Part shown: one piece after another, positions 34,328 through 40,973 of the stretch
Numbering within the stretch: position 1 is the stretch's first letter
Layout: the number at the start of each line of letters is the position of its first letter
Source of the DNA: Phycisphaerae bacterium
GTDB lineage: Bacteria; Planctomycetota; Phycisphaerae; UBA1845; PWPN01
Assembly (NCBI GenBank): GCA_018003015.1
Contig: JAGNEZ010000020.1
Coordinates: 1 to 64,000 of the forward strand
Direction: 5' to 3'
Length of the DNA: 64,000 bases
Made by a program: the position numbers and the translations under genes
Notes under the pieces: generated by a model
Told to the model about the DNA's origin: nothing
Databases searched by the model: none
The model's input: the letters and a program-made list of their open reading frames with translations, nothing else

Positions 34328-34411
34328 AAGCCGGCCTCTCTTTCTGCTTGTTCCTTCGGGCGGTCACCGGTATTCTGCCCCTGGTTGGTATTGCCCAGAG
34401 GAGGAGATCTC

Positions 34412-37400
34412 ATGCACAAGCCAACGCTGGCCTGCGTTCTCGGGTTTTGGCTGGCAAGCCAGAGTTCCCTGCCCGGAGCGACCATTCAGAAGCGCTACTA
34501 CGCCCACGAAGCCGTCGAGGATGCCAACGGCGTGATCGCCCCGTGGTACCGCGGGCAGAACGGGCAATGCGACTTTCGCGTGCGTGTGGCCGCCGAGACG
34601 CTGAAACGCTACCCGTGGACGGACGCGAGGAAGGCCCCGGCGGCGTTGCCCGAGTTTGTCTTCAGCGGGCGGTGGCAGATCAAGCCGGATGGGACCATCA
34701 CCATTCCCGAGCTCAAGGACTGGGACAACGGCGACCTCGGGCAGCGGGCGTCGTACGTGCTCGGTGGGCTGGTCGACTACTATCGCTACACCGGTGACGG
34801 GGCCGCCATCGGGCTCATCACCTGCCAGGCGGACGCCCTGCTCGACTACGCCCTCACGCCGAAGGACCATCCCTGGCCGGAGTTCCCGATCACCGTGCCG
34901 GTCAAGGGCAAGCCTTACGGCCAGGCGGACGCGACGGGCTTCATTCAGCTCGACATCGCGGCCGAGATCGGCATCAGCCTGGTCCGGGCGGCTCAACTCA
35001 CCGGCAACGAGCGGTACATGGCCGCAGCCAAGCACTGGGGCGATCTGCTGGCCGAGAAGCGGCTCCGCGAGCCGGGCATGAATCCGTGGCCGCGGTACGC
35101 GAACCCGGAGGACGTTCTCTGGGAGGACATTGCGACCGGTGGCGTGGCGTTCATTCTCGAGTTCTTCGATGTGCTGATCCGCGCCGGCTACACCGGCAAG
35201 GACAACAGCATCGTGCAGGCACGGGAGGCCGGCGTCGCCTATCTTCGTGATGTGCTTCTGCCGAACTGGCTCGGGCATGATACCTGGGGCCGCAACTACT
35301 GGGACTGGCCGTGCGACGTCCAGGTCGAGAACGTGACCGAGTTTGTTGCTCGCTACTTGATGGAGCACCCCGAGGAGTTCCCGAACTGGAAGACCGACGC
35401 CCGTAACGTCATGACGCTGTTCATCAACCGCACGTGTACGGCCACCGACTCGCGGGGCGACACGTACCACGGGGCGTGGGCGTATCCCGAGTCGTCCACC
35501 TGCTGCGGTCGGTCGCTGTGGTACGGGCCGATGGAGCTGGCGTTCGTGTACGGCATGTACGGTCAGCTTGCGGGCAGCGAGTGGGGACGCGAGATGTGTC
35601 GGCGTCAGATCCTCCTGGCCACGTACGACGGGCGGGAGACCGGCGTGGTCGAGGACAACCTGGACGGTGGAGCGATTGTGGCCGGCGATTGGTTCAAGAT
35701 TGCCCAGCCGATGACGCTGAAGCACTGCCTAGCGGCGATGGCCTGGATGCCGGACGTGCTCGGGGCGAGCCGCGAGAACCACATCATGCGGAGCAGCAGT
35801 GTGGTGACCGAGGTTGCCTACGGCAGCGGCGTGGTCATGTACAAGACACACGACGCACCACCAGAGACCATCGACACGTTGCGGTTGGCCTTCAAGCCCG
35901 AAAACGTCCGTGTGGGACCTGCCTCCAGCACAAGGCCTCTGGCCTCGCGTGAGGATCTTGGAGAAAACGGTTACACCGTTCGACCGCTCCCCGACGGCGA
36001 CTTCATCCTCGCCGTCCGCCACGACGGCGAACGGAATGTCTATATCAAAGGCAACGAGTCAGGGAAGGGGGTGCCGTTAGACGAGGAGACCAACGGATGG
36101 GAGAGATCGCAGTTTCTTCTGACCAGTAGCAGCGCGGGTGCGAGCCTCGTGATGCCGTTCACGGGTAATCAGATCCGGCTTGCTGGCAGCTTCGCTCCGG
36201 ACGGCGGCCTCGCCGACGTCTACCTCGACGACGTGAAGCAGTTGGCAGGTATCGACTGCTGGGGGCCCAAGGGCCACTTCGGCCTGCTGTACTACCGTAA
36301 CGGGCTGGTCAACGGCAAGCACACTCTGAAGATCGTAGCCACGGGCAGGGGCAATCCGAAATCCCGAGGAAGCCAAGTTGCCCTTCTTCCTTACTATGAG
36401 ATATCCGAGGCTGTGCCAGGCACATCTGGCCCGAGTTTCGGCGAGGGTGGCGGGCCGACCGATGCCCAGCGATGGATCTTCGGATACCCCGGCCGTACGG
36501 ACTATGTCGACTCGAAGGGCAACCCCTGGCGACCGGCGACCGAGTTCGTGGTCCGGTCGGGCAGCCATGTCGATCCGGTGGTCGCCAACTGGTGGACCAG
36601 CCGCACCCGGTTGACCGTCCGGGGCACGCCCGACCCCGAGCTGTACCGTTATGGCGTCCACGCCAAGGAGTTCTGGGCGGACTTCACCGTCGGACCGGGC
36701 ACCTACCACGCCCGGCTCAAGTTCATGGAGACCCGGAACATCGAGCCGAAGTTGCGGGCGATCACGGTGCACATCAACGGCCAGGAGATGGTCGCCAACC
36801 TCGACCTGTGCGCCACGGCCGCGGGCGATACCCCCGCCCGCACCGTGGCCGACATGCACGCCGGGCTCAAGCCTCTGGCGTCCGGCCTGGTCAAGCCCGT
36901 AGACCTGGTCTTCAACAACCTCGCTCCGCTGAACGGGGTCATTTCGATCCGGTTCAGCAATACGCTGGGCGGCGAGGCGATGGTCCAGGCGATCGAGGTT
37001 GGCCCGGGTGACGGCGGGCAAGGCGCTAAGCCAATCACCCTGAAACTGACAGCAGCGGGCGAGCCGGCCTCGCCCGACGGTAACCTCTTATCCAACGGGA
37101 GCTTCGAGCAGGGCATGCCCGGCGATCTGGGCTCGATGGGCAAGACCGGCGGCGGCAGCGGCTGGCAGTATCTCTTCGCCGGCGCGAGTATGGCCTACAT
37201 CTTCCCCGAGTCCGCCTACGCGATCCACCCTCAGTGGGGACTGCCCGTCCTCCACGGCGGCAAAGAGGCGATACGCACCCACACCCACGGGCGAGGGCAT
37301 ACCATCATCTGGCAGGATGTGGAGGTCAAGCCGGACACGAGGTACGCCGCGGCCGTCTGGGTTCGCGCGGACGATCTGCACGGCCAGGGTTTTGGTGCTG

Positions 37401-37630
37401 ATCCTGGTGACTCGGCCGGGCTGTGGATCCAAGAGTTTGACGAGAGGGGTGTTTTGGTCGTGGACCATCCCAAGCAGGCGGTGGCCAAGCCGTGTGACTT
37501 CACCCGGCTGAATCGGAGCTTCACCACGAGCAAGACCACGGTGAGAGTGAGGTTTCTTCTGGACACCGTGATCGCGGCCTCCTACGAGCAGGGGCACGTG
37601 ACATACGATGATTGTGCCCTCAGGATTTGA
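34412..37630 (+). CDS. Large secreted multidomain protein: (alpha/alpha)-barrel glycosidase-like with malectin and CBM4/9-like domains
   Basis: The protein has 1072 residues from ATG 34412, picked because AGGAGGAGATCTC lies directly before it. A short signal peptide (CVLGFWLASQSSLPGA) leads into an all-helical barrel-like domain (about 60-490) with YVLGGLVDYYRYTGDGAAI, GFIQLDIAAEIGISLVRAAQLTG, WEDIATGGVAFILEFFDVL, YWDWPCDVQVENVTEFVARYL and YPESSTCCGRSLWYGPMEL. A jelly-roll segment follows (about 570-670, FAPDGGLADVYLDDV). Next is a malectin-like domain (about 685-870, with YVDSKGNPWRPATEF and FMETRNIEPKLRAITVHINGQE). The last is a CBM4/9-like domain (about 890-1072, NLLSNGSFEQGMPG). Acidic residues suited to catalysis are present, but I cannot assign a GH or lyase family. 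It is likely a polysaccharide-degrading enzyme or epimerase. Confidence 0.8.
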   Translation: MHKPTLACVLGFWLASQSSLPGATIQKRYYAHEAVEDANGVIAPWYRGQNGQCDFRVRVAAETLKRYPWTDARKAPAALPEFVFSGRWQIKPDGTITIPELKDWDNGDLGQRASYVLGGLVDYYRYTGDGAAIGLITCQADALLDYALTPKDHPWPEFPITVPVKGKPYGQADATGFIQLDIAAEIGISLVRAAQLTGNERYMAAAKHWGDLLAEKRLREPGMNPWPRYANPEDVLWEDIATGGVAFILEFFDVLIRAGYTGKDNSIVQAREAGVAYLRDVLLPNWLGHDTWGRNYWDWPCDVQVENVTEFVARYLMEHPEEFPNWKTDARNVMTLFINRTCTATDSRGDTYHGAWAYPESSTCCGRSLWYGPMELAFVYGMYGQLAGSEWGREMCRRQILLATYDGRETGVVEDNLDGGAIVAGDWFKIAQPMTLKHCLAAMAWMPDVLGASRENHIMRSSSVVTEVAYGSGVVMYKTHDAPPETIDTLRLAFKPENVRVGPASSTRPLASREDLGENGYTVRPLPDGDFILAVRHDGERNVYIKGNESGKGVPLDEETNGWERSQFLLTSSSAGASLVMPFTGNQIRLAGSFAPDGGLADVYLDDVKQLAGIDCWGPKGHFGLLYYRNGLVNGKHTLKIVATGRGNPKSRGSQVALLPYYEISEAVPGTSGPSFGEGGGPTDAQRWIFGYPGRTDYVDSKGNPWRPATEFVVRSGSHVDPVVANWWTSRTRLTVRGTPDPELYRYGVHAKEFWADFTVGPGTYHARLKFMETRNIEPKLRAITVHINGQEMVANLDLCATAAGDTPARTVADMHAGLKPLASGLVKPVDLVFNNLAPLNGVISIRFSNTLGGEAMVQAIEVGPGDGGQGAKPITLKLTAAGEPASPDGNLLSNGSFEQGMPGDLGSMGKTGGGSGWQYLFAGASMAYIFPESAYAIHPQWGLPVLHGGKEAIRTHTHGRGHTIIWQDVEVKPDTRYAAAVWVRADDLHGQGFGADPGDSAGLWIQEFDERGVLVVDHPKQAVAKPCDFTRLNRSFTTSKTTVRVRFLLDTVIAASYEQGHVTYDDCALRI

Positions 37631-37729
37631 CTTTCCTGAAACCTGTGCTCATGCTCGTTCGTCTATTGGGCAGGGGTGGTATGTTTGCGTGGTTTAGCGA
37701 CCGCGGCCCTGTTTTGGAGGATGGCGCTC

Positions 37730-39409
37730 ATGATGGCCTCCGCCCGTCTTCGACTCTCCCTCCTGGTTGCGTTCGCCTTGTTCTCGGCCGTGCCGATCGC
37801 GCTTGCTGTCCAGGAGAAGGCCCAGACCTTCAAGCTGGATCTGAAGAAGATCACCGAGAGTGGGCCGAGATACCTCGAGTACGGCAAGCTACCGACCGAG
37901 GAGGCTCTTCGGCGGTGGTGTTCCTCCCAGCACGTCTGGTCGGTGAAGGGCGCTCGGCGCGGGGGTGAGGAGGGCAAGACCTTTGAGTCGCTGGCCAAGA
38001 AGGAGCCGACCTACGCCAGTGAGTTCGCGATCAAGGGTGTCGTGAAGCTGGGTCAAGACTCCTATCCCTTCGCGTGCGATGCCGCCGATTTGAACAAGAC
38101 GGGCTTCGAGAAGTTCTACTTCGATGCTAACCGCAACGGCGATCTGACCGACGATCCGGTGGTGACCGCCAAGAAAACCGACCTGGACGGGATTCGCTTT
38201 GGCGGTGATTACGTTCCCGAGCGGTCGTTCCCGCGGGTGGAAGTCAAGATTCGGGTCGGTGACGGCGAACTAGACTACGCCTTCTTCCTGACCGCCCAGG
38301 CGTACCAGACGTACATGCCGGGAGATGACGGCAAACCTGCGCAGACCTGGCAAGGTTACGCCCAGTTCAGCCCCGCCATCTACCGTGAGGGCGAGGTGAC
38401 GCTTGACGGCAAGCGGCACAAGATCAGCCTGCTCGACTACAACAGCAATGGCTCATTTGACGATGTCACCGCCCTCTACGGCGACGAGGAGTTTCGCAAG
38501 CAGCGCAAGATCGCCTATGCGATGAACGGCGACATGCTCCTGGTTGACCCTGAGCCCAGGGCGGAGAGCATCGGATACGGATATGACGTCATCGATCGTC
38601 TCGAACGGCGTTATGTGTCCAAGCTGGTGTGGATCGACGGCCGCTACTGGGACCTGAGAGTTGCCCCGAGCGGCGAGACGATCACGCTGAGCCCCAGCGA
38701 CCGGCCGACCGGGACGATCTCCAATCCCGCGGCGCGTTACCATGCCGTGGTCTACGGCGATCTCGGTTTCCTGGCGGTTCACGGGAGCAAGGACGACCCT
38801 GTGGTTTTGCCGGAGGGCGAGTGGAGACTGCTGGAGTACACGATCGACCTGACCGAGCGCAAGAAACCGGCGACGGTTCCGGCCGCCACCCAGGCCGCCA
38901 AGGCCAAGGCTTCCAAGTCACTGTTGGGGGCTCTGTTCGCGTCCATCACCGGCAGGAGTGGGCCGGGTCGCGGTCGTCCCGACTTCACCCTCGTGTCGGC
39001 CAACGCCCCTTGGGAGTTCAAGGCGGTCAAGGTCACCAGGAATCAGGCTTCGCCGATGCCGTTTGGCCCGCCCTACAAGCCGTTCGTCAGCGTCGGCTAC
39101 TTCCCGGACAAGAACACGGCGAGCCTCCAAATGCAGCTGGTCGGCTTGGCGGGCGAGGAATGCAGCAACCTGATGGTGAAGGGGGAACGGCCCCCGACCC
39201 CGACGTTCTCCATCGCCACAACGGGCGGCGAGATCATCGAACGTGGCAAGTTCGAGTATGGTTGAGGCTTCACCTGCGGGTACTCGTGGCGAGTACCATC
39301 GAAGCTGGCGGATGAGTATCGCGTCTACGTTCAGATGAAGACCGGCCCGTTCGAGGTGGATCGAAAGGCCTTCAGCGTCCTCAGGGCGGCCGAGCTGGTA
39401 CAGAAGTAG
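37730..39409 (+). CDS. Candidate selenoprotein: exported EF-hand-like protein with in-frame UGA (Sec512) read through
   Basis: The start is ATG 37730 (GGAGG 10 nt upstream), with signal peptide RLRLSLLVAFALFSAVPIALA. Two Ca-binding-like loops, DANRNGDLTDD (residue 132) and DYNSNGSFDD (residue 236), sit in a beta-rich body. The frame meets TGA at 39263-39265 after RGKFEYG. The same frame then continues without interruption for 47 codons to TAG at 39407-39409, reading GFTCGYSWRVPSKLADEYRV and ending AAELVQK, which is fully protein-like. A perfect hairpin follows the UGA (see 39263-39305). If the UGA is decoded as selenocysteine, Sec512 and Cys516 form a U-x3-C pair, a likely redox centre. Conventional annotation would stop at 39265 (511 residues). 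A nonsense mutation or sequencing error is the alternative. Function is otherwise unknown; the next gene is redoxin-like. Confidence 0.65.
39263..39305 (+). promoter_or_regulatory. Candidate bacterial SECIS element directly after an in-frame UGA
   Basis: UGA is at 39263-39265. A perfect 8-bp stem, GGTACTCG (39279-39286) with CGAGTACC (39290-39297), is capped by the 3-nt loop TGG. An outer stem, GCTTC (39267-39271) with GAAGC (39301-39305), closes it. The apical loop lies 22-24 nt after the UGA and has a G at its second position, inside the 16-37 nt window accepted for bacterial SECIS. The stem uses codons CGA, GTA and CCA, rare in this GC-rich window, as if selected for pairing. Confidence 0.6.
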
Positions 39410-39506: not shown

Positions 39507-40973
39507 ATGTCATCTCTTCCCCTTGCTCATCATGGACGATTGGCCGCTGCGATCATGATCCTCTGCGGCTGGGCCTTGCCGGTGGTCGCCCAAGCCACCT
39601 CGGCCACTAAGCCCACCGATACCTCGCCGGCTCGTGATGAGATGCGGGTTGACAGCATCGAAGGCATGCCCGTCTCGCTTCAGCCCGCCAAGGACCGGGT
39701 GTTGCTCGTCGTGCTTTTGGACACCCGCGACGCGAAGTCGGACGAAACGGCCAAGGCGGCGGTCACTCTCTACCGCCGTTTCCACGCCCACGGCCTGGAT
39801 GCCGTCGGTGTGTATGCCGACAAGTCCGAAGACCCGGTCTTCACTTTCAGCGAACGATGGCAGCTGCCCTGGCCGCAGGTCATGGACAAGGCCGGCGACC
39901 AGCCCAAGCCCTCCGAGCGGCTCCATCTGGACAAGCCCCCTTCCTGTCGCTTGATCTCAGCGCGGGGCAAGCCCGTACCCCTGAAACTCGAGGATGAGAG
40001 CGGCACGCATGCGGCTGTGGCCGAGCTCCTGGGTGTTTCTCTCGAGCGCGCTCCCATGCCCGAGAGAGTGGTTGCCAAGGTCATCAAGGATCCGCAGCAG
40101 GCGGCCAATCCCCTGGCGATGCTCATGGCCTTTGGGGCGGAGACGGATGTCAGCAAGAATCCGGAGAAGGCCGCCGATCAGATTGTCAAGACGCTCGCCG
40201 AGGACGGGGGCACGCAAATCGGCTCGTTGATCGTGGAGTGGCTCTACCCGGCCGCGGACGGGGAGATTGCCGACGTCATCAAGGCGACGATGGCCAAGCT
40301 GCCGCCCAGAGATCAGGTTCGCCTGGCCTCGGGTGTCATGCAGCGAGCCCCGGACGGCATCGAGTGCATCCTGCCCTACGTGGCCAAGCTGGACTACGGT
40401 GATTCGGTAATTGCGAAGATGTCCCGGTGGGATCGGAGCCAGTGCGGGCGAGCCCTGGTCCTGGCCGGCGAGCTGGTCAAGGGCCGCAAGGTGCTCAGGA
40501 CCATCGCGGAGCAGTCGGATAGCCAGGAAACGGCCTGGTGGTACGTCGTGGGGTGGGCGGACCTGCTTGACGGCCAGGCGGACTTGGCCAAGGAAGCGCT
40601 CCGTAAAGCCTACCGCGAGGATGGCGACTACAACGGCACGGCCGCCAAGGTGTCGGGCGATGTGGCCGCCTTCTTGCTGGGGAAGATCGACGAAGCGACC
40701 TTACTGAGGGCTCAGCCCAAGAAGCTGGCCCGCTTCTTCATCGCCGAGCGGTACGTGCTGTGTGGCGATCGTGACAAGGCCAGGCAGGATTATCGACGTT
40801 GCGTCAGGCTCTACAGTGACCCGCGTGATCCATCTCCCTGCAACTGGGCCAACCTGCGGCTCAAGCAGCTCGACGACAAGCTTCCTGGTTTGCCGAAGGC
40901 GCTCCCGCCCGAAGGGCGACTCTGGATGAAACCGGGCGAGTCGGCGGCCACGCAGTCCGGGCCGGCCCGCTGA
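39507..40973 (+). CDS. Exported redoxin/TlpA-like protein lacking active-site cysteines, with TPR-like C-terminus
   Basis: The protein has 488 residues from ATG 39507, which has GGGAGGGTCTCC upstream. The signal peptide runs through AAAIMILCGWALPVVAQA. Residues about 35-165 have thioredoxin/TlpA fold order: ARDEMRVDSIEGMPVSLQPAK, DRVLLVVLLDTRDAKSDETA (where C-x-x-C would be expected but T-R-D-A stands), LDAVGVYADKSEDPVFTFSERWQLPWPQVMD, and SCRLISARGKPVPL. So the disulfide site is lost while the fold appears kept. The C-terminal about 250 residues are helical and repeat-like (WWYVVGWADLLDGQADLAKEALRKAY, RFFIAERYVLCGDRDKARQDY), resembling TPR units. It follows the candidate selenoprotein gene by 97 nt and is probably in the same operon. 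A binding or scaffold role for the fold is inferred. Confidence 0.75.
   Translation: MSSLPLAHHGRLAAAIMILCGWALPVVAQATSATKPTDTSPARDEMRVDSIEGMPVSLQPAKDRVLLVVLLDTRDAKSDETAKAAVTLYRRFHAHGLDAVGVYADKSEDPVFTFSERWQLPWPQVMDKAGDQPKPSERLHLDKPPSCRLISARGKPVPLKLEDESGTHAAVAELLGVSLERAPMPERVVAKVIKDPQQAANPLAMLMAFGAETDVSKNPEKAADQIVKTLAEDGGTQIGSLIVEWLYPAADGEIADVIKATMAKLPPRDQVRLASGVMQRAPDGIECILPYVAKLDYGDSVIAKMSRWDRSQCGRALVLAGELVKGRKVLRTIAEQSDSQETAWWYVVGWADLLDGQADLAKEALRKAYREDGDYNGTAAKVSGDVAAFLLGKIDEATLLRAQPKKLARFFIAERYVLCGDRDKARQDYRRCVRLYSDPRDPSPCNWANLRLKQLDDKLPGLPKALPPEGRLWMKPGESAATQSGPAR

Follow-up and report, generated by a model that had tools for sequence, protein, structure and literature searches.

Identification of an in-frame UGA codon and a downstream hairpin

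We asked whether the in-frame TGA at positions 39263-39265 of a 64,000-nucleotide stretch of DNA from a Phycisphaerae bacterium (the whole stretch is hereafter called the window) terminates a gene or specifies selenocysteine (Sec). As the first-pass annotation of the window had described, this TGA is followed in the same frame by 47 sense codons and then by a TAG at 39407-39409. When the TGA is read through, the gene extends over positions 37730-39409 of the forward strand, on which all features described below are located, and encodes a protein of 559 amino acids with Sec at residue 512; homologues align across its full length. The gene starts at the ATG at 37730, with GGAGG at 37716-37720 and alternative in-frame starts at 37721 and 37676.

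The translation begins with a likely signal peptide of approximately residues 1-26 (37730-37807), with the hydrophobic sequence LLVAFALFSAVPIALA, and the structure model contains a helix at residues 3-25. From these two features we infer that the protein is exported. The two EF-hand-like loops that had been proposed are present in the translation, namely DANRNGDLTDDP starting at D132 (38123-38158) and DYNSNGSFDDVT starting at D236 (38435-38470), and D132 is invariant in 48 proteins of the window type (class A, see below); however, the Pfam matches to GEVED and EF-hand_5, which concern the second loop, are weak. The C-terminal Sec domain (residues 446-559, positions 39065-39406) contains the UGA codon for Sec512 in the motif G-U-G-F-T-C, and Cys516 (39275-39277) is a possible resolving partner of Sec512 (U-x3-C).

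We confirmed a perfect 8-bp hairpin, GGTACTCG/TGG/CGAGTACC, at positions 39279-39297, whose loop (39287-39289) begins 22 nt after the UGA (a spacing of 21 nt), where it had originally been placed. An outer stem, GGCUUC/GAAGCU, which pairs 39266-39271 with 39301-39306, also folds around this hairpin, as had been suggested; unlike the inner hairpin, however, it is not conserved in the family. According to the rule given in PMC13188914, a bacterial SECIS element (bSECIS) has a loop of 3-9 nt, a stem of 4-16 bp, a spacing of 16-37 nt, a G among the first two nucleotides of the loop and a minimum free energy of at most -7.5. The window hairpin, with 8 bp, a UGG loop, a spacing of 21 nt and an energy of -17.3 kcal/mol for the 48-nt fold of inner hairpin and outer stem, fits this rule. 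In many relatives, the loop is 5 nt long (AUGGC), with G as the third nucleotide, and lies outside the strict two-position rule.

We examined the covariation of the hairpin at 36 diverged sites and found that both sides had changed at seven of the eight pairs, as in the compensated examples GTACTCGTGGCGAGTAC, GTATTCCGGGAGAATAC and GGCTACATGGAGTAGCC. The covariation score was 0.416, compared with 0.133 (sd 0.021) for shuffled sequences, and every slid control was lower. For 53 sites that were found by protein profiles and did not fit the exact DNA pattern of the SECIS described below, a hairpin with a pair score of at least 5 and a G among the first three loop nucleotides was present in 85%, compared with 25% of shuffles; under the strict two-position rule for G, the proportions were 70% and 22.5%, respectively. 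The hairpin figure for the complete set of 228 sites is partly circular, because most of those sites were drawn from the SECIS pattern. Two codons in the stem, CGA and GTA, are indeed as rare in the window as had been thought (11% of Arg and 7% of Val codons, respectively, in 17 window ORFs). Under local codon usage, the precise series of codons that specifies YSWRV would be expected with a probability of approximately 0.0017; nonetheless, it recurs in diverged relatives. As judged from sequence comparison, the hairpin downstream of UGA512 is under selection at the RNA level.

Sec machinery of the host genome

The genome from which the window is derived (G000; 6.86 Mb, 98.7% complete) was searched for selA, selB, selC and selD, a check that had been proposed along with the candidate, and all four were found above curated cut-offs (selB, 339.9 bits; selA, 528.2 bits; tRNA-Sec, 72.5 bits; selD, 368.1 bits). 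The selB and selA genes are adjacent on contig 26, and tRNA-Sec and selD are located approximately 0.5 kb apart on contig 9. Moreover, the window gene has a paralogue approximately 0.2 kb from selA, divergently transcribed, in which the corresponding codon is likewise an in-frame TGA; these two genes were the only members detected in the genome with the Sec domain profile. A search of the paralogue locus against Rfam gave no match at gathering scores. The locus on contig 26 (5271-17527) contains selB-selA, the Sec paralogue and then a DVU_1556-like methyltransferase, as well as a double-cubane-cluster anaerobic reductase with two related genes, and it is possible that this gene set constitutes a selenium or anaerobic redox cluster.

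Conservation of the TGA codon and near absence of Cys homologues

Homologues were found in 8 of 101 genomes (the host genome and relatives), and every match covering the motif contained one TGA. Relatives with 22-45% identity retain both the TGA at this position, within the motif G-U-G-[GF]-x-C, and the downstream frame. Whether homologues end at the same place had been raised as a check on the candidate, and none of them stops at codon 512. In the alignment, G-U-G-x-x-C-x-Y-S-W-R-V-P is common to the proteins, and the remainder is down to 22-25% identical.

We further searched 780 genomes with profiles of the Sec domain, comprising 392 genomes of Planctomycetota and 388 genomes of the phylum of genome G505 (Verrucomicrobia by record title). 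Among the 74 places obtained, 71 had one TGA, one had Cys and two were degenerate. Exactly one in-frame TGA was present in 56 of the 59 places in Planctomycetota (these were read individually except for a few of the weakest, and the TGA was at the motif) and in 15 of the 15 places in the second phylum. Since the profiles score U as Cys, Cys forms would match as well or better. The clear Cys homologue is a single case (L228/L061): genome G488 has Cys at the Sec position (QCCG), and no selA match was found in that genome. The other two places without TGA are degenerate copies in genomes that also hold TGA copies (G150 and G335). Degenerate copies of the Sec domain with neither U nor Cys at the motif were observed at three loci (L072, L106 and L235); a Sec copy is present in the same locus for the first two, and the third is just downstream of a Sec copy (L076).

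A strict Cys pattern, in which the Sec position was fixed as C, was also searched in 84,980 species, each represented by one genome, and no relative was among the 15 stretches that matched; since TGA forms were likewise absent from these matches, the result is read as a negative search for Cys forms. The first-pass annotation had suggested looking for Cys at position 512 in homologues, and it almost never occurs there, the codon being TGA instead; the family is thus nearly Sec-only. The proposed U-x3-C pair is present in most members, with Cys at U+4 in 198 of the 228 sites listed, but it is missing in the other 30 and is therefore not universal.

Distribution and linkage to selA and selB

The exact SECIS pattern (TGAGGYN6TGYN3TACTCRTGGCGAGTRCC) matched at least 118 stretches in named genomes and at least 131 distinct in-frame sites. 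The matches listed were mostly from Planctomycetota and also from records titled Verrucomicrobia, Lentisphaerae, Hydrogenedentota, Sumerlaeota/BRC1, Omnitrophota and others, although some of the records (titled Nealsonbacteria, Riflebacteria or 'bacterium') are possibly mis-binned, and independent sampling covered only two phyla, Planctomycetota and that of G505.

Within Planctomycetota, selA was present in 32 of 34 family genomes bearing the TGA, compared with 210 of 358 other genomes (Fisher test, P = 1e-5); since selA is common in the phylum (242/392), this co-occurrence alone is modest evidence. No selA was found at E 1e-60, a threshold that may miss a frameshifted gene, in 6 of 29 named family genomes, most of which are draft MAGs; one of the six (G511) is listed as a single chromosome of 5.8 Mb. 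The member in this record (L161, CP070678.1) has the odd motif FRUGNNC. In at least 11 genomes, a member is located within approximately 10 kb of selA. Among the matches listed, the named loci (up to 8 kb) contained SelA in 30 of 118 cases, SelB in 26 and either of them in 33, and a methyltransferase weakly similar to DVU_1556 was found in 19 of them.

Architectures and predicted fold

Members of the family were of three forms. Class A, to which the window protein belongs, consists of presumably exported proteins with EF-hand-like loops and a C-terminal Sec domain, in which approximately 40-60 residues follow Sec. In class B, the Sec domain is followed by approximately 270-325 residues in which several membrane helices are predicted, and no Pfam family matched this membrane part in more than one member. 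The third form is small (approximately 190-240 residues) and often lacks the Cys at U+4. Several small forms without this Cys (L222-L227, L229 and L232), with motifs such as YGUGGGGWASV, constitute a separate branch.

AlphaFold2 models had mean pLDDT values of 87.2 for the window protein and 88.6 for class B. Residues 446-559 resemble the sandwiches of MG2 and Ig-like domains, as in alpha-2-macroglobulin and FN3 proteins, with Z scores of approximately 7, which may reflect a common arrangement only, and the identity to these matches is only 5-15%. Pfam MG2 matched 7 of 48 relatives, in the same direction as the fold matches, and did not match the window protein. The Sec domain is predicted from these models to be an MG2/Ig-like beta-sandwich. 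Similarity of fold says nothing of function, and we know of no MG2/Ig-like domain that carries Sec. The fold matches listed for the Sec domain included no thioredoxin-type entry, although absence from this list does not exclude a thioredoxin fold. A sequence search of solved structures with two family alignments and the downstream gene yielded no convincing relative. When models were compared with the PDB using Foldseek, the window protein had no match at E 0.001 or better, and the membrane branch, whose membrane part was barely tested by this comparison, had one match, an Ig-domain protein (TM 0.13).

Comparison with known selenoproteins

The impression that no described selenoprotein family has this make-up was borne out, since none of the 119 prokaryotic families or subfamilies in a 2026 catalogue (PMC13188914, Table 1) has the motif or the make-up. 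Neither the window protein nor its relatives were fitted by any model in Pfam and NCBIfam (June 2026). We found no earlier description in the literature searched, which left out most subscription papers and preprints, so that a description may exist outside it; the main text of PMC4807772, on planctomycete selenium, names fdhA and fmdB and none like the window family, and PMC5029168 and PMC9312934 do not mention Planctomycetes.

As in selenoproteins with a bSECIS, such as formate dehydrogenase FdhA, there is an in-frame UGA, a hairpin approximately 21 nt downstream with a G in the loop, and selABCD; in contrast to them, the present family has no sequence match to any listed family and has its Sec in a predicted beta-sandwich domain. 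The DUF1573 (UGC), UGSC-containing and UGC-TlpA selenoproteins (PMC13188914) also have Sec followed by Gly, whereas the motif here is U-G-x-x-C, without a profile match. The near absence of Cys homologues is a further difference, as all known selenoproteins now seem to have them (PMC12013277), and the authors of deep-Sep stated in the same report that their own method may filter out selenoproteins without Cys homologues. Gene searches demanding Cys homologues would discard members of a family such as this one.

Interpretation of the Sec codon and its possible function

The window gene very probably represents a new, nearly Sec-only family of exported selenoproteins with an ordinary bSECIS, which is present in Planctomycetota and other phyla, comprises secreted as well as membrane-anchored branches and is often linked to selA-selB. 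The comparative evidence shows insertion of Sec at UGA512. In the mechanism that we propose, UGA512 would be decoded as Sec by SelB and tRNA-Sec, with the hairpin directly 3' of the codon directing the insertion, and the product would be a multidomain beta protein that is exported and bears G-Sec-G-x-x-Cys in an Ig/MG2-like sandwich at its C-terminus. Sec512 could then serve as an extracytoplasmic redox nucleophile that is resolved by Cys516 as a selenenylsulfide, a proposal for which we consider the balance to be even.

The 511-residue part upstream of UGA512 is a long open frame by itself, and other genes in the window end in UGA, as would be expected if UGA512 were an ordinary stop and the downstream frame had arisen by chance; however, the frame past the TGA is conserved in the relatives, with C516 and YSWRVP invariant, and the hairpin shows covariation, so that such a stop is extremely improbable. 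That UGA is reassigned (for example, to Trp or Gly), or that the TGA is a sequencing error or marks a pseudogene, is scarcely credible: nothing beyond the in-frame TGA itself speaks for it, whereas the identical TGA occurs in independent genomes, the Sec machinery in the genome is complete, and the sole intact homologue without TGA carries Cys in a genome with no selA match.

Other functions of a selenoprotein were also considered. Instead of taking part in redox catalysis, Sec512 and Cys516 might serve at the cell surface as ligands of a soft metal or metalloid. The placement of Sec in a domain that is predicted to be a beta-sandwich and for which no thioredoxin-type match was listed would correspond to this, as would the sites lacking the U+4 Cys, which are as compatible with a ligand as with a redox pair. 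We regard such binding as unlikely, as G-U-G-x-x-C resembles redox motifs and no genes for metal resistance were recognised next to the selenoprotein gene within the window. In many genomes, members are closely linked to selA and selB, which would also be consistent with an outer selenium store or a sensor tied to the Sec machinery; however, one Sec in 559 residues makes a poor store, and many copies, including the window gene, are unlinked to selAB, and we consider such a role quite improbable.

A nearly Sec-only exported family, the reading that we prefer, opens the question of a chemistry that Cys cannot perform, and would place Sec in a predicted Ig/MG2-like sandwich outside the cytoplasm. 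We lean towards the broader view that it is a large, nearly Sec-obligate exported superfamily whose fold does not occur in known selenoproteins, whose members are linked to selAB in several phyla and which perhaps constitutes a main reason for keeping the Sec trait. Its linkage to selA-selB makes it testable whether one family helps to explain the retention of the Sec system in Planctomycetota and other phyla. In public annotation, the genes of this family have probably been shortened by 40-320 residues, with the loss of the active site.

Neighbouring genes

The next gene (39507-40973) encodes an exported protein in which a region that may be thioredoxin-like, lacking CxxC and weakly similar to ResA (E 0.055), is followed by TPR. 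This gene also adjoins the selenoprotein gene in two other genomes (G001 and G007), and at most hints at a redox setting for the selenoprotein. Just upstream of the selenoprotein gene, positions 34385-37630 of the window encode a large malectin-domain protein, which, among the loci compared, is conserved only in the nearest relative.
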